Origin: Bedellia somnulentella
Lineage: Eukaryota > Arthropoda > Insecta > Lepidoptera > Bedelliidae
Direction: 5' to 3'
DNA length: 64,000 nucleotides
Assembly (NCBI GenBank): GCA_963576735.1
Contig: OY755177.1
Span: 3,658,001-3,722,000 of the forward strand
The notes under the pieces: generated by a model
Database searches by the model: none
Seen by the model: only the letters and a program-made list of their open reading frames with translations
Told to the model about the DNA's origin: nothing
Shown here: positions 2,786-56,400 of the stretch, one piece after another
Numbering within the stretch: position 1 is the stretch's first letter
Layout of the letters: every line of letters starts with the position of its first letter
Made by a program: the position numbers and the translations under genes

Positions 2786-2956
2786 ATAACACGTGTAATT
2801 CCTGATAGCTTAGCAATTCGGAACATTCTGGTTATATTTGTTTACTCTTACGTTTGTAAAACTCTCACATTCATCCCTAATTTAAAAAAGGTAACATTAT
2901 TACCTATTCAATAAATTTAGAATCATAGAAATCGGTACAGAAATACCAAAATAAGC

Positions 2957-2961
2957 CATCG
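2957..2961 (+). repeat. 5-bp target-site duplication of Transib (left)
   Basis: CATCG directly precedes the left terminus and recurs at 5834-5838. The paralogous repeat copy at 55620-55998 carries this site once, uninterrupted. Confidence 0.85.
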
Positions 2962-3000
2962 CACGGACATAGATTTCGTCTATTTAGGCGGCCAAAAACC
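2962..3000 (+). repeat. Left Transib terminus, RSS-like
   Basis: Heptamer-like CACGGAC at 2962-2968, spacer of exactly 23 bp at 2969-2991, nonamer-like CCAAAAACC at 2992-3000. The vertebrate RSS nonamer consensus is ACAAAAACC, so eight of nine bases agree. The spacer contains tagatttc and atttaggcgg, which are shared with the right end. Confidence 0.85.
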
Positions 3001-3232
3001 GGTTTTCCGAAAATCAATCTAATGACAAATTAACCATTTACTCACGTAGTACACAGTTCTAGGAAAGCAACGGTACCCGTCCCAACGTCCAGTGACGCGC
3101 GAGAGTCTACCCTCAGGTAGTCGGAATTCGATAGTCGCTTAACGTGCACGTGTCTGTTCTCGACGCTCCTAAACTTACAACTTTTGTAAAGTGTGTATTT
3201 GTTTTTAAAACAATTATTTTCGTGTGACAGTG

Positions 3233-5576
3233 ATGGATTGCAATACTTCAGGTAAGAATTTATGTATTTCAACAGTAATTTACTTGGTTTTCATTTTCCT
3301 TATCATACTTTTGACTTGTCAAAGATTGCTCTAACAAAAATGAAATATTTTTGTATTTTTAATTTTAATGAAGTCTTTTAACTAACTTCAGGGTTCGTCC
3401 GAGCAATGATTTCTATATTTTTCAATACCTTACATATTTTTCTTTGTAAAAACAAAACAAATAGCCGCGGAAACCCGCGCTTTTAAAAAATATGGGCATT
3501 TGAATATTTTGAGTCAAATTAAATCTTTTTGTTTTTGTTTTAGGTGCGTCTGGTGCCTCGGGTACTAAAGTAGTGACACGAAAATACTTGTTTGACCAAA
3601 TACAATGCCAAAATTTACCAAGTTTTAGTGAAAAAGTAGATTGTTATGAAGATTTTCTTTTGATTCGTTATGGAGACACAGAAATTGCTAAAAAGTGTTT
3701 GAAGAAAAGGTTTTCATATATGAAAACTGAATTGAAGAAAAGATGGACGAAAGCTAGTAAACACGAAGAAGTTTTCCTAAAAAACAACCGAGATTGGTTA
3801 GAAGGAACTTTTGAGATTCCAATAGAGTTGTGCTCTTCTCGAGGGAGACCACCTAAATCTTTTGAAGACTTAAGTGAGCGCAGCAAAAGAAGGAAAACGG
3901 AAGAAGTCCGCGCAACTTTGGGCCCTGACGTCATTATCCACGCTGCACAATCGGTTTTACAAAGTACGGGGCACAGAGATGCTTCAAAAGTTCTTAAAGA
4001 AATCACCAATTCGCCTACACGAGCCAGCAAATATAGAACTGCCTATTTGAAAGTCAACAACGACGACGAAGTATCACCTCCACTGACGCCTCTGCAAGCG
4101 CTCCAAATGTTCGTTGAAGCCGATCTTTCGAGACGGCAATACGAAATAATAAGGGCAACAAACCCAAAACATTTCCCTTGCTATGATCTCTTGCTAAAGG
4201 TGAAAAAAGAATGTTATCCGCCAGAGGAATCCATGAGTGTAACGGCTACTTCCGCAGAGAGCAACATACAATGTCTAATGGACCTTACTGTGACACGCTT
4301 ATCAATATTCCTAGAAGAGGTACTAATTACCCTTAATGAGGTAGAACGGAAATCGCTAACAATTATCTGTAAATGGGGTTGTGACGGCTCCCAGCAATCT
4401 AAGTTCAAACAAAATTTTGATAATGATACGGATTCTGATGGAAACATATTCTTGAGTTCTTTCGTACCATTACGCATTGTTTGTGGAAAAGAAAATGGTA
4501 AAATAATATGGCAAAACCCAACACCATCCTCGCCGCGATTTTGTCGTCCTATCCGATTTCGGTACTCGAAAGAGTCTACAGATGTTACGAAAGAGGAGAT
4601 AAGTTATGTGCAGGAATCAGTAAGTTTGCTAAATAGTACCAAAGTCATTTTACAGGACAAGGAATATGAATTTGAGCATATAATGAAAATGACAATGGTA
4701 GACGGAAAGGTGTGTAACGCAGCCACAGGCACAAAATCAACCTCGCGGTGCTACATCTGTGGAGCTACGTCGAAAAGCTTCAACGATTTAAAGAGCAAGA
4801 ATGAAGTGAGCCCCCAAGCTCTAGAATTCGGCTTGTCTGTATTGCATGCTAGAATTCGGATTTTCGAAAGCATACTTCATCTAGCGTATAAATTACCCGT
4901 AAAGAAATACGGAGAGAGGAGAACCACAGAAGAAAAGGCACTGGAAGGACAACGAAAGTCTGAAATACAAAATAGATTTCGCAATGAAACTGGACTGCTC
5001 ATAGATATGCCAAAAGCTAACTTTGGCAATACTAATGATGGCAACACAAGCAGGAGATTCTTCGAAAATCCTGAACTGGCATCAGAGATCACAGGAATTA
5101 GCTTTGAGCTTATCTACAGGTTCAAAGTTATATTGGAAACAATATCAAGTGGTCACGAAATTAATGTCACAAAATATGATCAATATGCTTATGATACTGC
5201 AAAATTGTACGTTGACCTGTATGGATGGCATCCAATGACACCGACAATACATAAAATATTGATGCATGGTGGGCAAATCATAAGCAATTCACTACTTCCT
5301 ATTGGCCAGTTATCTGAGGAGGCAGCAGAAGCCCGGAACAAGCATTTTCGGTCATACCGACTTAACTTTGCTAGAAAGTTTTCTAGAAAGGAATGCAATT
5401 TAGATGTATATAATAGGCTTTTATTAACATCTGATCCCTTCATCAGCTCCAGGAGAAAAATTAAGAAACCTTCTCGCAAAGTTTTCCTTCCTGAAACCAT
5501 AGAAATGTTGGTGTCTGCTAAACCCAATAGAGAGACAATAATGGAGGAATGCTCTCAAAGTGAGAATAATATTTAA
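3233..5576 (+). CDS. Transib transposase (RAG1-core homologue), two exons
   Basis: Exon 1 is 3233-3251 (ATG plus six codons and one base) with donor gtaagaa. Exon 2 is 3544-5576 after acceptor ttttag. Splicing gives one 683-residue frame. Family signature: KWGCDGS (D287, first catalytic Asp), MVDGKVCNA (D393, likely second), zinc-binding-type CYIC (C409, C412), HKILMH (H576, H581) and SEEAAEARNK (E602, likely catalytic Glu). The spacing and the SEE-x-x-EA-x-NK motif match those of the RAG1 core, whose Zn site is also CxxC plus HxxxxH. Also seen is the Transib-typical string GNTSRRFF. The protein should bind and cut the CAC-starting ends of its own element in the nucleus. The start is chosen because exon 1 splices in frame; without it exon 2 would lack a nearby ATG. 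Catalytic assignments are by alignment from memory. Confidence 0.88.
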
Positions 5577-5793
5577 GTAGTTTTATTTTTGTTATCATTT
5601 TAGATAATTTTATTATATTTAAATATATTTCTTTATATATTATTGATACATACTTTGATAATTCCATTTTTGTGAAAATTATTATATGTTCAAGTGTAAA
5701 AATGTTGTTCAAAATGAATAAAAAATATTGTTTTGTATCAAAAATGGTTTATTTTAATTTAATATTGTACTTTTAACTCATTTCAAACCAAAA

Positions 5794-5833
5794 ATATTTT
5801 TGGCCGCCTAAATGGTTGAAATCTACGTATGTG
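5794..5833 (-). repeat. Right Transib terminus, RSS-like
   Basis: Read on the minus strand from 5833: heptamer-like CACATAC, a 23-bp spacer, then CCAAAAATA. It shares TAGATTTC and ATTTAGGCGGCCAAAAA with the left end at the same spacing. A CATCG duplication follows at 5834-5838. Confidence 0.85.
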
Positions 5834-6170
5834 CATCGCGACCGTGACCAAAACCAAATCTTTACTAATTTACATATAACATACTAGATGGCGCCAGTAG
5901 TTGCATCCTCATCACGTAATGATTTCTTTTTTAGATTGTTATAAATACTTCATAGCGTTTTATTCCAAAATTTGCTAATAAACGGAAATACTGAACCGTT
6001 CATAAAAGCGCATTCAAAATCAACAAACTACACTGTTTAGGGAGTGCTATAAATTTAATAAATTGAAAACATTGCGCTAAATTTCACAATGCTTGAGCAT
6101 TGACTGAAGAAAGTAACCTCAGATATTTAAAAAACAACTCCACCCGTGCGAAGCTGGGCCGATCCACTAG

Positions 6171-24100: not shown

Positions 24101-27100
24101 AAGCCCCAATAGGATACTAAGTCGCCTCTTACGGTCGTATGACACTCACGCTAACGAATGAGTTAGCACTATTATGAAGGGCAAGCACGAGCGCTATTTT
24201 ATCGACATGATAACGGTTAGAATGAGATGTCATTATACGATACTAAGTAAGTGCGTAAGAGATGACTGCTTTATCCGCGATAACTAGTTTAAACATGGCT
24301 GTTGTGACAATAGGCATGATGACAAATTTTGAGAAACTATTCTATAATATTTGGTAATATATATTAATTATAATAAACATAATATTTCTGCGAAAAATTT
24401 AGGTTTAGTACTTAAAAAATAGTTTTTGATTCATAAATTTAAAATTTGCACGAAAACGCGTCAAAGTGTCATGGCGTCGCTTTCTTACGTCACTAAAGAT
24501 TACAAGAAACAGTGTGACCATTTGTGGCAGATTTCTGCCATTTTGGCTGATTTGGACCCAAAATTTAAGCCCATAATAAAATGACAATATCTATGTATCA
24601 GCAGATCAGGCGGGATATCCCCGTGTAATCTGGGTATCAGCAAAGACGTAGGAACAAAGGTTGCCAGATTTGGAATAAATTTTCTAGTAAATATTTTCTA
24701 ATTACCTTACTTAAATTATTTATTGTTCATTTTCATGCAATTTTATTTAAAATTAGCATGATTTTATTAAAACCTTTGATATCTGCCAAAATCTGCCACA
24801 TTTTGAAATCGTTAGCATAATATGCCACAGCTTAAATTTTGGGTCCAAATCTGCCAAAACGGCGGAAATCTGCCACAAATGGTCACACTGGCTCAAACGT
24901 GACGTCATGCGCTCAGATTGGCGTTCAACATCTCATGGCGGATTGCCGTATTTAGCGATTTTATTTAATCGATTATAATATTCATCTTGCTTTTAATTAT
25001 GAAAAGAATCAGAGTTTTAGAATTAGGAATTTTGAAATAATATACACACAAATTATTTCAATGAAATTTACTTGTTGTCATCATGCCTATTGTAACATAA
25101 AAAATAAAATAATCATGAAAACAATACTTTATGCCATATCATATTTGTTCTAAAAATACATTTTATTGTTTACCTATGTTACTTAAAAGTTTTTTTTTCA
25201 CTTACAGGTAAATGACTTAGTTCGTGATAAATTAAGTGACAAAAACGGCAACATACCAATGTGGTCAGAAATTTTGGCTGGAGCTTGTGTAAGTTATGCC
25301 AATAAATATATTTTTTTTAAGTATAAATACATAAACGGTTTCCTCTGTGGTCTAAAAGTTAGAGTGTTTGGCTCACAAGTCGGAGGTAACGGTGTCGATT
25401 TTAACCAAATTGGTAGGATATTGCAGTTTAAGTCTTCAGATAAGATTATTAAAAAAATATTCCTTGTATAAAATTATTAAAAATTTTCATCTAAACAAAA
25501 ACTTCCTTCCTTTTTTCCAGGCGGGAGGGTCCCAAGTGATATTCACGAATCCCTTAGAAATAGTGAAAATTCGTTTACAAGTGGCCGGCGAATTAGCAAG
25601 CGGGAAGAAAGTTCGGGCTTTAGCTGTTGTCAAAGACTTAGGGTTATTTGGACTGTATAAGGGTGCTAAGGCCTGTCTTTTGAGGGATGTACCTTTCAGT
25701 GCTATTTACTTCCCAGCTTATGCGCATGTTAAGGTGAGATATGAGATATTGTTATGAGAAATAAATTTGTTTTTGTTGAGAGTGATTAAAAACTGTTATT
25801 TGTTGGATTGAACACTTTGATTGTTGTTTAAAATACGTACTTATTTATATTATATTAGATTCTATATATATTAATCAGAGCCTTAACCAACTGAAGTGGT
25901 TCATTGGATTGTTCAGTGGTTCAATACGGGATCCACAAATACTTAGCCATTTTTGTTGGAAATCCTACCAAACAACTATCCACTCATTTATGCCGTCTTT
26001 ATATTACCCGAGTAGATATTAAGACACTTTGATCCATGTTGGCCTAGTGGGATGTCGTAATCAAAGTTCATATTCGATGGCATTTAAGTCAAACGTCAAA
26101 AGTGTTAACACTATCCAAAAAACTTCAAGTAATAATTCAACCGCACTTATATCACGTTCACTTGGTTATTCTAAACTTCATTTCGAAATTTAAAATTCCT
26201 CTTAAGGAGATATATAATAATAATTTAATAATTTATTCAGACCAAAATGGATCCATTGAATTAGTAACACTTAAGAGCTATATTAGTATTTAAAATTAAA
26301 ATGGAATTAAATTAACAATTACATCAAATTAAAATAAATTACGATATAAACCAAAACAAAATAAAAAGAAATTACAATTTAGATCCAATTAAAATTAAAT
26401 TAAATCAAACCTAAAACTTAATTAAACATAAATACAGTTTCGCTTATTATATGAGCAGTTTCGCTTATTATTTACGCATTAGTATGCCGTGTAGTGTCGG
26501 CTTAGAATTACACTACCCTATTTTTACCCGTGGGTGATCGTAAGAGGCGACTAAGGGTATAGGGGCTTTTTAAGTGATTTTTGGGCGATGTGGTTGGAGA
26601 CCCGTCACCAAAAACATTTATTATTACCATCTTTTCCCCAATCAACTTCCAAAAGTGGCTGAGGAATTTCACATTCCAAAGTTCTGGACTACGGACACGG
26701 CTATAAATCCCTTAACGGGGTACGTTAAGGGATTTATAGCCGTGAGTATATGTATATATGTATTAGTATATAAGCTTAAAAAATATGTGTAATGTTGCCA
26801 GGCAAAATTCGCGGACGAAAACGGCTACAACCATCCTCTAACATTGTTGGCTGCCGGTGCAATAGCTGGTATCCCCGCCGCGTCGCTGGTCACACCCGCT
26901 GACGTCATCAAGACCAGGCTGCAGGTCAGTTATTTATTTATTAAGATGCAATTACAGAGCCTTACTGCCAACCCCTTCGGGTATATACGGCGTGAACGTT
27001 TGAGTGAGTTCAGTTTGTTTATTGGTTTTAATACACATAAAAGACTCATAGCTTGTGTTTTACGTGATGAAAACTGGGACAAATGACAGTGAAAAGAACG

Positions 27101-32020: not shown

Positions 32021-32272
32021 TACATACATACATACATATAGTCACGGCTATAAATCCCTAGAAGGGGTAGCCAGAGCTAAGAAATTAGAAATCCCTCAGC
32101 CACTTTTGGAAGTTGCGTGGGGAAAATATGGTAAAAATAAAGTTTATTGGTGATGGGTCAACAACCACATCGCCCTAAATTCCTTTAAAAAGCCCCAATA
32201 CTGTTAGTCGCCTCTTACGTACACCCACCGGAAGAAATGGGGTGGTGCAATTCTAAACCGCCACTACACAGC
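32021..32272 (-). mobile_element. SINE family A next to LINE insertion
   Basis: Full-length minus-strand copy. Part of its antisense sequence forms the first codons of the long ORF that starts at 32237, so those residues are not part of the LINE protein. Confidence 0.75.
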
Positions 32273-32280
32273 ATACTACT

Positions 32281-32297
32281 ACATACTAATATTATAA
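32281..32297 (+). repeat. 17-bp LINE target duplication (left)
   Basis: acatactaatattataa occurs here and again at 33970-33986, immediately after the LINE's TATG tail. Confidence 0.75.
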
Positions 32298-33969
32298 TAC
32301 ATACTAATTCATCCATTTCTTCGCCAATCAGCAGTAATGTTGATTGGAACGTCGTTATGGGTGACTTTAGTGACAGTGAGATCAGTATGGAAGAAATAAT
32401 GAAAGCAATGAAAAGTATGAAACTAGGGAAAGCGGCAGGGTATGACAGGATAAACACTGAAATGCTGAGGGCTGGTAAAGGGGTGGTGGCTTCCTGGTTG
32501 TACTTCCTTTTCCAAAAATGCTGGTCGAGTGGCAAAGTGCCACAAGACTGGTGCAAAGCGGTGATTGTGCCTTTATATAAAGGAAAGGGGTCACACCAGG
32601 AGGCTAGAAACTACCGTGGAATTAGCCTACTCAGAATTGTCGGTAAATTGTATGCAAAGGTTTTGATTGAAAGAGTGATGAATGAAACGGATGATAAAAT
32701 TTGGGATGTGCAAGCAGGATTTAGAAAGGGAATGGGATGTATGGACCAAATCTTCTCTTTAAGGAGCATCACCGAAAAGTTCTTAGCTAAGAACCGAAAG
32801 GTGTATTGCTCCTTCATTGATTTAGAGAAGGCGTATGATAGGGTGGTTAGAAAGTGTTTATGGGAGGTGTTATCCAAGTTCGGTTTGGGGAGTCGACTTA
32901 TACGTGCACTGGTATCACTCTATGAGGATTCCAGTGCATGTGTGAGAGTAAACGGGGAAAATACTGACTGGTTCGGGATCTCTCGGGGTGTCCGACAGGG
33001 TTGTGTAGCTTCCCCGTGGCTCTTCAATTTGTTCATGGATGACTGTTTAACAGAGTTGCGTGAAAGTGATTATGGATTGAGAATGGGTGGATTCATCATC
33101 AAATGCCTCTTATATGCCGACGATCAAGTGCTACTTGCATCATCGGTGGAAGAGCTGCAAGAGATGATGAATATTGCATGTGCGTCTTTTGAAAAAAAGG
33201 GAATGAGGGTGAATGTGGATAAAACAAAAACTATGGTTTTTGAGAGAGAGGTGAATATGACCGAATGCGTGATTGAGATTAATGGTAAGAAAGTGGAACA
33301 AGTGAAAGAGTTTGTATATTTGGGAAGTTTGTTTACTAGGGATGGAAAGTGTGATGAAGATATCGAGAGAAGAGTGAAAAAGGGTAATGCGGTAAATGGA
33401 GCGCTGGATAGTCTAATGTCTAGTCAGTCGGTGTCTGAAAAGGCCCGAATGGCTGTGCATGGTGCTGTCCTCGTTCCTACGCTTATGTATGGCAGTGAAT
33501 GTTGGGTGTGGCAGAAGAAGCATGAAAGTAGAGTGAATGCAGTAGAAATGAGATCCCTCAGAAAAGTGTGTAATGTAAGGTTATGTGATCGTGTGAGGAA
33601 TGATGTGATTCGTGAAAGGTGTGGTGTAAAAGATGATATTGTAAGAAAGATAGAAAAAGGAATGTTGAGATGGTTTGGGCACATAGAGAGGATGGATGAC
33701 AGTAAATTGGTGAAAGAGATATATAGAGCCAATGTGGAAGGTAATGTTAGTAGAGGACGACCTCGGAGGACACATTTGGATCAAATAGAAAATGTGCTCA
33801 AAAAGGCAGGTGTCCGCAGTATGAAGAATAAAAGAGCATGTATGAAAAGATTGATGGATGTAAACGAAGCCAGAGAGGTTTGCCAGGATCGTACAAAGTG
33901 GCGATCGATAGTCTCTGCCTACCCCAATGGGAACTAACGGCGTGAGAATATGTATGTATGTATGTATGT
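32298..33969 (+). mobile_element. 5'-truncated LINE with intact reverse transcriptase end
   Basis: Non-LTR retrotransposon of 1672 bp. It lacks the endonuclease region, has a 17-bp target duplication and ends cggcgtgagaatatgtatg with a TATG tail. A second, much shorter copy of the same 3' end is at 22983-23220. The absence of stop codons or frameshifts indicates a recent insertion. Confidence 0.9.
32330..33937 (+). CDS. LINE reverse transcriptase, N-terminally truncated
   Basis: Non-LTR reverse transcriptase that would copy element RNA at a nicked target. Visible blocks in order: GKAAGYDRINTEMLRAG, ARNYRGISLLRIVGKLYAKV, FIDLEKAYDRV, GVRQGCVASPWLFNLFMDD, catalytic LLYADDQVLLA, MRVNVDKTKTMVFE, FVYLGSLFTRDG, and a C-terminal MLRWFGHIERM and [12 protein letters not shown] stop. 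An open frame extends upstream to 32237 but its first 20 or so residues come from antisense SINE and flanking DNA. No endonuclease domain is present, so the copy cannot move alone. The clade (RTE-like versus jockey-like) is not settled. Confidence 0.88.
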   Translation, partial: SSNVDWNVVMGDFSDSEISMEEIMKAMKSMKLGKAAGYDRINTEMLRAGKGVVASWLYFLFQKCWSSGKVPQDWCKAVIVPLYKGKGSHQEARNYRGISLLRIVGKLYAKVLIERVMNETDDKIWDVQAGFRKGMGCMDQIFSLRSITEKFLAKNRKVYCSFIDLEKAYDRVVRKCLWEVLSKFGLGSRLIRALVSLYEDSSACVRVNGENTDWFGISRGVRQGCVASPWLFNLFMDDCLTELRESDYGLRMGGFIIKCLLYADDQVLLASSVEELQEMMNIACASFEKKGMRVNVDKTKTMVFEREVNMTECVIEINGKKVEQVKEFVYLGSLFTRDGKCDEDIERRVKKGNAVNGALDSLMSSQSVSEKARMAVHGAVLVPTLMYGSECWVWQKKHESRVNAVEMRSLRKVCNVRLCDRVRNDVIRERCGVKDDIVRKIEKGMLRWFGHIERMDDSKLVKEIYRANVEGNVSRGRPRRTHLDQIENVLKKAGVRSMKNKRACMKRLMDVNEAREVCQDRTKWRSIVSAYPNGN

Positions 33970-34862: not shown

Positions 34863-35164
34863 ATCGTCTATAGTAGCGTTTTAAAATAATGTTCTGTTCT
34901 GCCTTAACTTTTTGCTGTAAAATCATGAAAGGAGAACCGTTTTACCAAAATTTTAAAGTGAGCGAAGCCGCGGGTAAAAGTTAGTCTCTGATAAAAGAGA
35001 AAATAATTGACAGTAGAATTTACTATCTTAATGAGAGTTATGAAAAAGATTTTATACATCTTTTTTCAAGGATAGGTCGCAGCAGCCCCATTTGAAGCAG
35101 GTTTTTTTATCACACACGTACAACCTCATAAATAAAAGATGTTATTAAAGGAAAGAAAAATTTC

Positions 35165-35237
35165 GACACTGGCGGGGTTCGAACCCGCGACCTTCGGGTA
35201 TACGCCCCCGTCGCTCTGCCAACTGAGCTACAGTGTC
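35165..35237 (-). tRNA. tRNA-like gene or tRNA-derived head
   Basis: Read on the minus strand, a 73-nt sequence folds with a 7-bp acceptor stem (gacactg/cagtgtc), a D-arm with A-box tagctcagttgg, and a perfect T-arm gcggg-ttcgaac-cccgc containing the B-box. The anticodon arm is abnormal (only cggg/cccg with an 8-base loop ggcgtata), so no anticodon can be read. Its outer flanks are mutually inverted (aaggaaagaaaaatttcg versus cgaaatttctctatcctt). I favour a tRNA-derived repeat over a working tRNA. Confidence 0.45.
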
Positions 35238-46200: not shown

Positions 46201-48821
46201 GCTTCTAAATTTTGATTTTTATATTAGTTTACAATATTTTACGTTGTTTTAAACGATGCACATGCACAGCGCCATCTCCAATGCATTTAGTAAGCAAACA
46301 ATATTTTTGATTTCCCATGGGAACATATTTTTTCGGGGATAAAAAGTACCCTATTATTTAATTTAGACTTCTAACTACACGTCTGAAAAATTTCAAAGCA
46401 ATCGGTTCAGTATTTACGGCGTGAAAGCGGAACAAACAAACAAACAAACTCACTTTCCCATTTATAATATTAGTATGGATTATGTTATTATTATTTATTT
46501 CTCATGAATAGTTTAAGATGAACCTAGGTAGCTCAGTGGGAAAGAACCCTCACTGTGATAGAGAGGTTAGAATTCTGCGCTAATCCTACATCTGTATTTT
46601 TATTCATATATGCTGAAGTGGAGTGTGTCCATCAAGATCCCCCAGTTCAATCCCCTAGGGGATCCTAGTGAACTTGTTGGTTCATCAGGATCCCCTCAAA
46701 TTAAATCAAAGTAAAGGTGCTTTCATACATTGCCTTATTTCATTGAATAAGTCTAAGGAGGTATACTCTAAAAAAAATATTTTTTAATAACCCATTAAAA
46801 AAAAATTCAAGAACCAGATGTAAAAATTTGCTATTTTCATTTTAAGAAAAACGTCAAAAAAAAGGGGGAAAAACTCAAGTTGTCAAAAAATAAATATACC
46901 AATAGAATAATCATGTTATGTTGCACACTTCCATTATTGGCTCACAATGATATTACTGAGGGTTGGCCGTATATCGATAAATACATAATGAGCATGAGAG
47001 ATACATGCAATTTTGGCTAAAAAACGGAGAAAATCAGTAAATGTGGTCGGTATATATTGAGAGGCATCGGACCAATAATTGTTGTGAAAGCTGGAACTCT
47101 GCTTTAATAAAAATGATTGGTCGCAAACGGCCCAATATATTACAGATGTTGAATGCACTCAAAAAAGATGTTGAACAGAAGCTGTGACAGGAAAAGAAAA
47201 CGCGTGAAAAAAAATATATCTATTGATAAGTTTATTCAAGAAACACAGCTGGCATTGATAATTTTTTTAAGGGGATCCTAAAGAACCAACAAGTTCACTA
47301 GGATCCCCTAGGGGATTGAACTGGGGAATCCTGATGGACACACTCCTGAAGTGCTGTGACTTTGGGATTACATGCCTCAATTTCTTAAGACATTAGTTAT
47401 ATGAGCTGGTAATATCAGGAAAGCAACCATGCTAATATCAGGAAAGTTACAAGGTATAGATCAGAAGTTCTGAGGTATAGATCAATGGTCTTTAGTGCTC
47501 GTATGAATATAAAGTTGAGTTTTGTTTTTTGCATTTCTTTTATCATCATTTAAGATGGCGTGATAGAGCAGTGGGTAAAACACCGCTTATTGTGCAGAAG
47601 TGTTCTAATCCTGGGTCGGGCCTACAACAATTTGTCTTTTCTAAAAACATATGTGAGGTTAATTTATGTGAGATGAGGGAAAACATCGTGAGGAAATCCA
47701 CATGGCTAAGGTGTACTTAATCATGTGACACAGTGTATTCATACCAAACGCCTATAGGCTTGCCCCCTATCACTTGAGTACACTGTCCAAGCAAAACATG
47801 GGTACTCTGGACACTAAGTGACAATTTCACGTGATGTTTAGAAGCATTAGTATCTCTGCCAACCCCTTCAGGGACATTCGTCGTGAATGTTTGAGTCTTG
47901 ATTGTGTATTTGATTTGTTTATCAAACTTGTTGATTTTCTAATACCAACCTCTATAGCTCCTCCCCATGAGCTGGGTTGTTGAATCCAAACACAATAGTC
48001 AGCATTGGGCTTCCCGAGCATTCCTTCATTGTAAGTTTCTAGATCACTGGCTACCTCCATTGCTATTATTTGTCTCATTAGAGTATGAACTGTTGTATCT
48101 ATTTTACCATTGAGCACAAAACCTGAAATTATGATTACTTGGTACATTATTTTATTGTATTTGGATTGACACAGGTATTTATATATTACTTTGGTATATC
48201 AAAGAGTAATCAGCATCTTTATAGGTGGAATTCCGGGTTTCTTAATTCAGGGCTTGCAATTTTACAACAATCAACAAGTTATTGAAAGGAAATTTTGAAA
48301 ATGTTAGGTAACACATAAGCTATAGATCATTTATTCAAAATCAAGGTTCTTTAATTAATAAAATATATTTCTAATAATACATTAAGTCATACCTATCCAG
48401 AGAAATAAAGATTATAAGAGCACTTACCAATACTAGTAAATAGACATGAATTATCAGAAGGGACAACTTTTTTCATGAGTATTCCAGGTCGGCATGGACC
48501 TATGGTTTCGTGAGACTTCACACCATTTTCTACAGGCTTAGGATCAGGCTGGACTTCTTGTTTTATCACTACAGGAGCTGGCTTCTCCTCAACAATCAGG
48601 GTTTCACCGGATTTGAGACCTATCTCACTCAATTTTTTTTCGTCATTTGCGATCTCTAATGGTTTGGGAGGGAAACCACATAGAACGCTAATTCGATCTA
48701 CATTAATTTCGGTTAAGCTGAACAAGAAAATCTTAAGTTCACCGACTGTGTTGTCAGAGGTCAAATCCTTCAAAATATGCTGACCGTTCTTGCTTTTCAC
48801 TTTTAAAGCCAAAGCAGACAT
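43170..48821 (-). CDS. Yod1: Ubiquitin thioesterase OTU1 (YOD1), complete
   Basis: OTU-family deubiquitinase that, in characterised relatives, works with p97/VCP in ER-associated degradation. Five exons (48428-48821, 47950-48122, 44516-44674, 43886-44033, 43170-43231) join in frame to 311 residues. Residues 1-80 form the UBX-like ubiquitin fold (KSKNGQHILKDLTSDNTVGE...). The OTU domain follows: PSDNSCLF with D123 and nucleophile C126, SWGGAIE, and FDGVHYDPL with catalytic H232. The C-terminus is a C2H2 zinc finger (FTLKCMECDKLLTG + KHAKETHHTNFGEV) split between the last two exons. Start: the ATG at 48821 opens MSALALKVKSKNG, and no upstream in-frame coding is seen. Intron 2 (3.3 kb) is almost entirely mobile DNA. 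Human YOD1 is 348 residues, so this is a slightly shorter full copy. Confidence 0.95.
43507..43672 (-). mobile_element. SINE family A, 5'-truncated, in OTU1 intron 4
   Basis: Same orientation as the gene. Keeps the tail through the B-box-like motif and stops near gccaatactgttatg. Confidence 0.65.
43705..43830 (+). repeat. Interspersed repeat family E
   Basis: The blocks cacggtagtagtcatctgcc and aacccgcacttgtc resemble 59860-60010 (ccggtagtagtcgttagtca, aacctgcacttgcc). The class is unknown; it may be the 3' end of a LINE or SINE. Confidence 0.4.
43886..44033 (-). CDS. Yod1: OTU1 exon 4
   Basis: Acceptor attattccag, donor gtaatt. Encodes GGCQTIFPTEDVEIYREAEQ through FTLKCMECDKLLT, including the two zinc-finger cysteines. 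Confidence 0.95.
44516..44674 (-). CDS. Yod1: OTU1 exon 3, catalytic His
   Basis: Acceptor cattccag, donor gtaagt. Encodes VAILSHFYGVEMAVVDTLNA through LLFDGVHYDPLYLEQSD; H232 is the catalytic histidine. Confidence 0.96.
44745..44990 (+). mobile_element. SINE family B, head truncated
   Basis: Begins inside the tRNA-like head (gggtcgggcctacaccaatt) and ends cagcgtgaaagtttatga, directly against the Helitron 3' end at 44995. Confidence 0.65.
44995..46479 (-). mobile_element. Helitron, both ends identified
   Basis: On the minus strand it starts TC (tccatactaatattataaat) after an A and ends gcaaaaagCTAG before a T, the exact Helitron insertion rule. The 3' end carries a GC-rich hairpin region (cgcggacgaagtcgcggg). 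Length is 1485 bp. It contains an older SINE A (about 45138-45305), a GC-rich block shared with 34080-34200, and a tRNA-like segment (about 45725-45812). No helicase coding was seen, so it is non-autonomous or decayed. Confidence 0.75.
46515..46612 (+). mobile_element. tRNA-derived repeat, split by hAT-like element
   Basis: Head with A-box-like taggtagctcagtgggaaag and gaggttagaattctgcgcta in B-box position. The sequence resumes after 47353 with ctgtgactttgggatt. Confidence 0.45.
46621..47345. mobile_element. 725-bp DNA transposon, hAT-like, non-autonomous
   Basis: Exact 8-bp duplication CTGAAGTG (46613-46620, 47346-47353) flanks inverted ends gagtgtgtccatca / tgatggacacactc. The arms stay similar for about 75 bp, including the internal palindrome cccctaggggatcc. 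An 8-bp duplication is typical of hAT elements. No transposase was recognised inside. Confidence 0.8.
47553..47898 (+). mobile_element. SINE family B with tRNA-like head, in OTU1 intron 2
   Basis: Head atagagcagtgggtaaaaca and tgttctaatcctgggtcggg, body gaaaacatcgtgaggaaat, 3' end aaccccttcagggacattcg then cgtgaatgtttgag. Its tail ends only about 50 bp from the exon at 47950. It is antisense to the gene. Confidence 0.7.
47950..48122 (-). CDS. Yod1: OTU1 exon 2
   Basis: Acceptor ataatttcag, donor gttggt. Encodes FVLNGKIDTTVHTLMRQIIA through WIQQPSSWGGAIE, the middle of the OTU fold with the substrate-loop WGGAIE motif. Confidence 0.95.
48428..48821 (-). CDS. Yod1: OTU1 exon 1, UBX-like domain and catalytic Cys
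   Basis: ATG start, donor gtaagt. Encodes MSALALKVKSKNGQHILKDL through VVPSDNSCLFTSI. A proline/glutamate-rich linker (about residues 80-110) separates the UBX-like and OTU domains. Confidence 0.96.
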
Positions 48822-49168
48822 TTTAAAATATATAATGCCTACTTTAATTGTTTAAATGATAGAAATTATTTAAAATACAAGTTTTTAGAATAAAATATCA
48901 TAAATAAATAAATTTACGATACATAACGCTCAAATAGCTGTATTGCTTTGCTTGCTTGACAGACATGACATGACATGACACTGACAGAACTGACAGTTTA
49001 TTTGATTGGGCAAAGCGGTGATGGGTTGTCCAGAATGCATTTTTGGTTTAGGCTTTAGGTGACGTTTGTATATGCATTTTCTATAAAGTATACGCCTTTG
49101 GAAAACATTCCTTGTGAGCCAAATCTCTACACTTACCACCGATTTATAAGGTTAACTTTTAATCAATA

Positions 49169-53412: not shown

Positions 53413-56400
53413 CTGGAAGGAAAACACAGCAAATTTAATTTAAGTATTTTTACAACCCTTTACAACGAATATTTTTAACCAACGCTTCCGTGTCTTCGGG
53501 ATCGTTCATTTATCTGTATTTAAACTAGTGATGGCAAATCACATGGGTCTATTTATTTTAAGTAACATAATTGTTTGTCAGTATAATCAAGCAATAATAG
53601 TTTTTTTTACATTTCCCAATCAGGTGAATATCCAGTAATAGCCCTAATAATTTTCATAATTGCTGATAAAACTAGCTACATCGGCACAACTTCCCAAATA
53701 CACACTTTTAAACACCTAAAAACTTGTGTCACTATAGTAATTTCTTACCTTAGTCCCACAAAACATGCCATTATAGGTCGAGCTGCCATATGACCCTCCG
53801 AATATGTGTCTCAGTTTCCAACTTGAACGCCAGGAAGGTCAGTTGCTCGAACCAGCCTCTCGGAGAGACGATCAGTACACAAAAGCTCGTTTTATCAGTC
53901 ATTACTTACCTTAGTCCCACAAAACGTAACATAATTATTAAAACTGCCATCAAGCCCCCCGAATATCTGCGCATAATCGTATCCAAAATTCGCCTCTGGT
54001 TCCAGTTCAAACGACAGGAAGGTCAGTCGCACGAACCAGCCTCTCGAAGCGAAGATGCTACAGATCTGGCTTCGTAGGAATCGTCGCCGTAGCGAGCGTG
54101 AGAGTAAAGAAGAAATTACACAATAATACTAATAAGACACAAAATACATGTAAATACACTCTTTAAAGCACCTAACTCCTCACCTTAGTCCCACAAAACG
54201 TGCCATAATTAGTCGAACTGCCATCCAATCCACCAAATATCTGCACATAATCATATCCACAATTGGCCTCTGGTTCCAACTCAAACGTCAAGAAGGTCAG
54301 ACGCACGAACCAGCCTTTCGGAGCGATGAAGCTCTGGTCATAGTCAGATCTGGCTTCGTAGGAGTCAGTAGCGAGCCTGAGAGTACAGAAGAAACTCCGG
54401 CACAAAATGCACACTTTAAAGCACCTAATTCTTACCTTAGTCCCACAAAACGTGACATAATTCGTCGAACTTCCATACAAGCCCCCGAACATTTGCACAT
54501 AATTGTATCCACAATTCGCATCTGGCTCCAACTCGAACATCAGAAACGTGAATCGCAAGAACCAGCTTCTCGGAGCGACAACGAGTTTACAAAAGCTTGT
54601 TTTATCAGTCATTCCTTCTCCGAATATGTGCATCAGTTTCCAACTTGAACGCCAGGAAGGTCAGTTGCTCGAACCAGCCTCTAGGAGAGACGATCAGTAC
54701 ACAAAAGCTCGTTCTATCAGTCATTACTTACCTTAGTCCCACAAAACGTAACATAATTATTAAAACTGCCATCAAGCCCCCCGAATATCTGCGCATAATC
54801 GTATCCACAATAGGGGAGATGACTGATTTTTGTTTCTTTCACCATTAGATAGTTTATTAAAAACTATTGAACACGTATTTTTTCTTTTTTATTATACTCA
54901 AACAATTACCGAGATATTTAGAGTTGAAATTACGCATGACGTCACACTGTGGTACGATTTCTACCTAGTTGTGACGTATTTAGCCCCCACTATTAAACTT
55001 TAACGCCTTATAACTAAGTGATTATTCATTAATTTCGTAAAATAAAAAATACGTGTCTAATATTTTTGCTTTATCTTATTAACGGACTAATTAGAATTTC
55101 GTATTTTTGACCCATGCATCTCGCCTATTCGCCTCTGGTTCCAGTTCAAACGACAGGAAGGTCAGTCGCACGAACCAGCCTCTTGGAACGACTATCAGAG
55201 TACACAAAAGCTTGTTTTATCAGTCATTTCTTACCTTAGTCCCACAAAAAGTGCCATAATTAGTCGAACTGCCATCCAATCCACCAAATATCTGCACATA
55301 ATCGTATCCACAATTGGCCTCTGGTTCCAGTTCAAACGTCAGGAAGGTCAGTCGCACGAACCAGCCTCTCGGAGCGACGATGCTCCAGTCACAGTCGGAT
55401 CTGGCTTCGTAGGAATCGTCGCCGTAGCGGGCGTGAGAGTAAAGGTGCTTTACTTGGTCGGTTGCAGCTAGGTAGCCTCCGCAGGCTGGAATTAGATATA
55501 GAAGGATATGACGGATAATTTGGTATTTTAAACACAATCAGAATGCAAATTTGTCAGACCTACTATGCAGCATGTATAAATAAAAAATAACAATAATAAA
55601 ATAAACATTTATTTTTAAACTAGTGGATCGCCCCAGCTTCACACGGGTAGCGTTGTTTATTTTATATCCGAGGTTTCTTCAATCACTGCTCAAGCTTTGT
55701 GAAATTAAGTGCAATGATTACTACTTAGAGCACTCCTGAATATTGTAGCTTTGTGATTTCTGTGAAAGCGCCCATATCATGGCTTAGCATCTCCGAACAT
55801 AAGCAAATTTTTAGAATGAGTTGAGTAAAACGCTATGAAGTACGTATAACAACTACAACTACTGGCGCCATCCAGTATGTAATATGTGATTTAGTAATTA
55901 TTTGGTTTGGGTAACGGGCGCGATGGCTTATTTCATGTGTAATTTCGGTGTTTCTCTACCGATTTCTATGATTATTTTTTTATTGAATAGGTAATAATGT
56001 CAACTTTTTTTATATTAGGGATTACTGAGAGTATTATGAACGCAAGAGTAATCAAATATGATCAGAATGCTCCGAACTCCAAAGCTATCAGAACAGAAGT
56101 AACACGTGATATTGCAACTAGACTCAGAAAACTAGTTTATATTTTCAGCAAGCTTCGCCGCGTCTCAGACAAAAGACTATTATTAAGTGTATATTTGGCG
56201 CTTTGTCAGTCACTACTAATATACTGCATTTCTACTTAGGGGCGCAGCCAAAACTTTTATACTGCCCGTCGAACGTGCACAAAGAGCAGTTATCAAAGTT
56301 ATGCTCCACAAACCCCGGCTATTTCCAACTAAACAGCTTTACACGGAATGCAAGTTACTAACTGTGCGCCAGCTTTTTATTCTGCATACATTACTGCGAC

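Follow-up and report, generated by a model that had tools for sequence, protein, structure and literature searches.

The 64,000-nucleotide stretch of the Bedellia somnulentella genome analysed here (hereafter the window; C8:3658001–3722000) carries, at positions 2962–5833 of its forward strand, what we take, with a probability of about 0.93, to be a complete and seemingly autonomous element of a distinct Transib family with a recent history of spread; the estimate covers both the identity of the element and the recent mobility of its family. RAG1, the recombinase of antibody genes, is believed to descend from elements of the Transib group. The window family has clearly been active in the recent past, since it comprises young, near-identical copies with intact frames and target site duplications (TSDs). 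The suggestion of the preliminary description that this could be a living element is thus upheld as far as recent activity is concerned, copy number and TSDs being records of past transposition; activity at present is possible. The family appears to be a new one within a known superfamily, ordinary in kind and well preserved. No description of it was recognised in the literature searched, which is no proof of novelty.

The element is 2872 bp long and, in agreement with the inverted CAC-starting ends described at the outset, opens with CAC at 2962 and closes with GTG at 5833. Its 5' (2962–2998, plus strand) and 3' (5797–5833, minus strand) terminal inverted repeats (TIRs) are identical at 31 of 37 nt; none of 20,000 random pairs of 37-nt segments drawn from the window reached 31 matches, the top score being 24. 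The left end starts with the heptamer-like CACGGAC (2962–2968), followed after a spacer of 23 nt by the nonamer-like CCAAAAACC (2992–3000, plus strand), while the right end, read on the minus strand, starts with CACATAC and has the nonamer-like CCAAAAATA (5795–5803, minus strand) 23 nt behind it. Relative to the nonamer of recombination signal sequences (RSSs), the 23-nt spacing fits the left end with eight of nine positions matching and gives six of nine at the right end. A possible polyadenylation signal, AATAAA, can be read directly within the element at 5717–5722 (plus strand).

The exact 5-bp duplication CATCG, also part of the preliminary description, is present at 2957–2961 and again at 5834–5838. 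When the flanks were joined through a single CATCG, the resulting sequence proved to be a dispersed repeat, and all 40 places scored among 783 first-look candidates crossed the junction at 88–90% identity. Three of these junction-crossing copies were read base by base; two carry CATCG once and the third TATCG. Because the related uninterrupted repeats carry the five base pairs once, the element inserted precisely and duplicated these 5 bp. The CAC-starting inverted ends and the CATCG duplication agree with what is known of Transib elements, the TSDs of which are given in a passage of PMC7764229 as 5 bp of the pattern CNNNG. The dispersed repeat that hosts the element occupies window positions 2872–2961 and 5839–5938, and is without 12 bp shortly to the left of the insertion when compared with the three repeat copies read.

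Several other features of the window were noted by eye. A long open reading frame (ORF) at 32189–33937 (plus strand) reads as the reverse transcriptase of a non-LTR retrotransposon, and exon-like ORFs read as a mitochondrial carrier of the aralar/citrin type (25356–25757, plus strand), a YOD1/OTU-type protease (48393–48851, minus strand) and a CUB-domain protein (54172–54660, minus strand). In addition, a tRNA match of 55.1 bits lies at 35164–35237 (minus strand); ARAGORN assigned it an anticodon of four bases, and it may be either an intact tRNA or the head of a tRNA-derived SINE.

A single predicted GT-AG intron of 292 nt (3252–3543, plus strand) separates exon 1 (3233–3251), which encodes MDCNTS and the first base of codon 7, from exon 2 (3544–5576, stop included), to which residues 7–683 are assigned by translation and protein match. 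Spliced together, the two amount to 683 codons and a stop, and the uninterrupted frame of 683 residues reported earlier is thereby reproduced. The residues that had been singled out, D287, D393, C409/C412, H576/H581 and E602, were likewise recovered from the spliced translation, where the motifs CDG, VDG, CYIC, HKILMH and SEEAAEARNK start at residues 286, 392, 409, 576 and 597, respectively. The catalytic core, from D287 to E602 and including the zinc ligands C409, C412, H576 and H581, is encoded by positions 4383–5330 (plus strand). Comparative evidence supports the predicted intron: the acceptor AG lies at the matching place and in the same codon phase in all eight loci compared (L027 and L029–L035), which belong to three other Transib families. 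A simple pattern search found no exon 1 in these three families. A lack of essential N-terminal sequence relative to other copies, named in advance as grounds for refutation, was not seen, exon 1 being of equal length in eight of eight aligned copies of the window family.

The window copy is 46 bp shorter than most of its sisters. Among the eight aligned copies, it alone has lost 34 bp from the intron, following 3517, and 12 bp from the 3' UTR, following 5604. Over its 2872 bp it displays three private substitutions, two of which are coding: one at position 4048, in the codon of residue 175, and one at position 4793, in that of residue 423.

In a search against proteins of solved structure, the transposase matched HzTransib (6pqn) with an E-value of 2.9e-116 over residues 187–663, with five further HzTransib entries also among the matches; HzTransib was the only Transib transposase returned. 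The two proteins are identical at 204 of 464 aligned residues (44%), and all seven key residues (D287, D393, E602, C409, C412, H576 and H581) face the same residue in HzTransib. RAG1L and RAG1 were detected weakly in the same search (RAG1L, E=5.7e-06; RAG1, E=0.0012). The Pfam match to RAG1 (E=0.00033, 19.4 bits) lies under the cut-off of 25, and the RAG1 non-core region is absent from the Pfam matches of the transposase. The Transib identity proposed from the motifs is therefore confirmed, and the comparison with Transib and RAG1 that had been suggested as a check places the protein inside Transib.

Copies of the element were sought in 548.9 Mb of genome sequence (486 contigs), in which a search with the whole element gave at least 57 matches (40 of 101 candidates scored). 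Other copies with near-identical ends and duplications of their own, the search for which the preliminary description had named as a check, do exist. For the 39-nt 5' end, 25 occurrences were counted at no more than three mismatches, 20 of which are exact, and none for the reversed control. The outer ends of 20 copies were inspected, and 16 of these copies are bordered by an exact 5-bp TSD, the four without one being L004, L014, L016 and L020; this set of 20 does not include L007, L009 or L023–L028 (the last being fragments or loci of more distant kinship). By position, the 16 exact TSDs have C (12/16), G (12/16), any base, C (10/16) and G (14/16). Two copies with exact TSDs are altered in other respects: the first three bases of the left end are changed in L011, and L021 is internally rearranged. 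Substitutions separate the window copy from L002–L007 by 0.22–0.38% and from the older L010 by 2.06%. Among viral contigs, the search patterns found no match.

The full 683-codon frame is retained in three of the eight aligned copies, namely the window copy, L004, which has an intact frame but no TSD, and L007. The protein search listed five loci of the family, L008 and L009 included, with stop-free frames of 687–707 codons. L008 and L009 (C7:13210918 and 13215318) are near-identical, lie 4.4 kb apart and have a common left flank, the right end of L009 being beyond the stretch examined; their sequences suggest that they are probably one tandem duplication that includes the element. L007 was considered as a 5'-truncated copy, a reading that was rejected: the copy is whole, with CACCG on both sides, and is split by an inserted CACAGTG-type element of ~1475 bp. 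This insertion (L045; C16:13891000–13894700, complement) lies in the 5' UTR, outside the coding region, has the TSD CAACG and is younger than the copy that it splits. An internally deleted form without element bases 1302–2099 occurs at eight loci (L014–L018 and L020–L022), five of which (L015, L017, L018, L021 and L022) have an exact TSD, and presumably moved in trans. Such a shared deleted form is what a declining family would show, and counts against the reading that we prefer, as do the broken coding regions of five of the eight aligned copies, the absence of a TSD from L004 and the two private coding substitutions of the window copy.

Two alternative identities may be considered. The long intact frame might be that of a host gene domesticated from Transib, an explanation that we regard as very improbable: domestication should leave a lone copy devoid of transposon ends, whereas here both TIRs and an exact TSD are in place and many near-identical copies, some of them broken, are dispersed through the genome. 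Just as improbable is a RAG-like (RAG1L–RAG2L) transposon, to which the weak RAG1 and RAG1L matches could be taken to point. HzTransib is closer, its E-value being lower by some 110 orders of magnitude, and no kelch-type RAG2-like gene was seen in the window copy. The transposase is the sole ORF of at least 130 aa within 2962–5833, in keeping with a passage of PMC4411706 according to which Transib elements carry a single gene, the transposase; since no second ORF of that size lies inside the ends, the element is assigned to Transib and not to RAG1L–RAG2L elements.

A more serious rival, to which we give somewhat under even odds, shares the Transib identity and differs in present function only. 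It holds that the window copy is a recently dead member of its family, the frame of which is open owing to the shortness of the time elapsed, and which is unexpressed or does not work; the changed residues 175 and 423, the shortened intron or silencing would be possible causes. The coding region is already broken in five of the eight aligned copies, and the two non-coding deletions and two coding substitutions private to the window copy speak for the same explanation. Against it, nothing is broken in the frame, the splice sites, the seven key residues or either end, and three private substitutions are few for an element of this length. The chances that the window copy still makes a working protein appear to be close to even. 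The reading that we prefer, of a complete and recently spread Transib element, would entail the following course of events. A spliced mRNA, its transcription and splicing being predicted, would encode the 683-aa DDE transposase, which would pair both CAC-starting ends and presumably cut at the CAC border through the nick-and-hairpin mechanism common to RAG and Transib enzymes. The free 3' ends would then be joined 5 bp apart in the target, giving rise to a duplication of the CGNCG type.

The window family is one of several Transib families in this genome. With the core protein as query, and 89 of 909 candidates scored, at least 91 matches were obtained at 41–100% identity, many being free of stops; among the 91 listed, at least 29 have a stop-free frame of 735 codons at 45–47% identity. 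The earlier statement that intact copies are uncommon is consequently wrong for this genome. Synonymous differences between the window family and two of the others are saturated (pS 0.80 and 0.81), as against pN values of 0.26 and 0.28, from which it follows that the protein was kept by selection between families. Two of the loci with 735-codon frames were read, L036:920–3820 on contig C19 (TSD TGCTG) and L037:946–3846 on contig C7 (TSD AGTAG); they represent a family with CACAGTG ends and are 99.8% identical over 2902 bp. The outermost 27 nt, common to both ends of this element, have 302 exact occurrences in the genome (156 forward and 146 reverse; control 0), a number suggesting ~150 elements, full-length or shortened. 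The CACAGTG-ended family looks to be more active than that of the window.

The heptamer consensus of vertebrate RSSs is CACAGTG, and the original paper on the likeness of Transib ends to RSSs is reportedly that of Kapitonov and Jurka (2005). The resemblance is noted in passages of PMC8355894 and PMC7204232, and a legend in the former describes symmetric spacers of 20–22 bp, with 12/23 asymmetry in some elements. In the CACAGTG-ended family, the best nonamer fit is shifted by one base at the left end and lies elsewhere at the right end. A possible reader of such ends is an N-terminal module, at about residues 107–165 (3843–4019, plus strand), which consists of a GRP motif and a basic stretch and which is similar to the nonamer-binding domain (NBD) of RAG1 in its position and its first 25 residues. 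GRP is invariant in the eight aligned proteins (that of the window and seven others from the same genome), and the module was also seen in L027.

Comparison of the module with the RAG1 NBD gave weak statistics. It aligned in order to the NBD in two RAG1 chains at insignificant i-Evalues of 59 and 35, and RAG1 was not among the matches at E≤10 to a 127-position profile built from the module and the first part of the core. Pfam scans of the eight aligned proteins gave no NBD-like match and yielded matches at chance level, each in one member (for example Myb/SANT-like, E=0.39). Profile-profile comparison resulted in P=0.019 for the module, with 2 of 200 shuffles scoring higher, and in P=0.051 for a longer stretch (5 of 200 shuffles). 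Alignment-free structure predictions were uninformative, both for the N-terminal fragment (mean pLDDT 49.7, pTM 0.26) and for the exon-2 product (pLDDT 33.4, pTM 0.20). A GRP-bearing equivalent of the NBD has been reported in Transibs of Subgroups I and II (PMC9435367). In view of the weak statistics and of this published equivalent, the notion of a newly seen RAG1 NBD homologue was dropped; the module may be called NBD-like, and is at most a candidate homologue of the RAG1 NBD. A bipartite, RAG-style reading of the ends, whereby the GRP module would grip a CCAAAAA box 23 nt behind the heptamer of both ends, is in our opinion rather unlikely. If it were true, this genome, its CACAGTG-ended family included, would offer living models in which a single protein recognises 23-RSS-like ends in the absence of RAG2.

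The closest known system is the HzTransib element of Helicoverpa zea, which is described in PMC1852546 and called functional in a passage of PMC8355894. Both elements have TIRs and a 5-bp TSD, which is GCTCG for HzTransib, and their proteins share the catalytic and zinc residues at a core identity of 42–44%. In a separate piecewise comparison, identity to HzTransib was 42% for the window copy and 34–60% for nine other loci of the genome; these values set the window family apart from HzTransib. The elements differ in length (2872 bp versus 3518 bp), and the window protein has 186 residues ahead of the stretch that matches the solved HzTransib chain. The other Transib families of the genome (L027–L041) share the DDE core with the window family at a core identity of 42–74%, and their ends start with CAC in the loci read (L030–L033 and L035–L039). 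The heptamers differ, being CACGGAC/CACATAC in the window element and CACAGTG in L036 and L037. In RAG1 and RAG1L the DDE core follows the same order as in the window transposase, and a passage of PMC7204232 ascribes to elements of this type a CAC start and mostly 5-bp TSDs, whereas by sequence they are weakly detectable from the window family. What is known of the origins of RAG is unchanged by the window element. As an intact relative that shares 44% identity with HzTransib, has its N-terminal region in full and its ends defined, and is accompanied by young sister copies, it provides a practical second system for work on RAG1-type end reading, for which the CACAGTG-ended family is at least as attractive.
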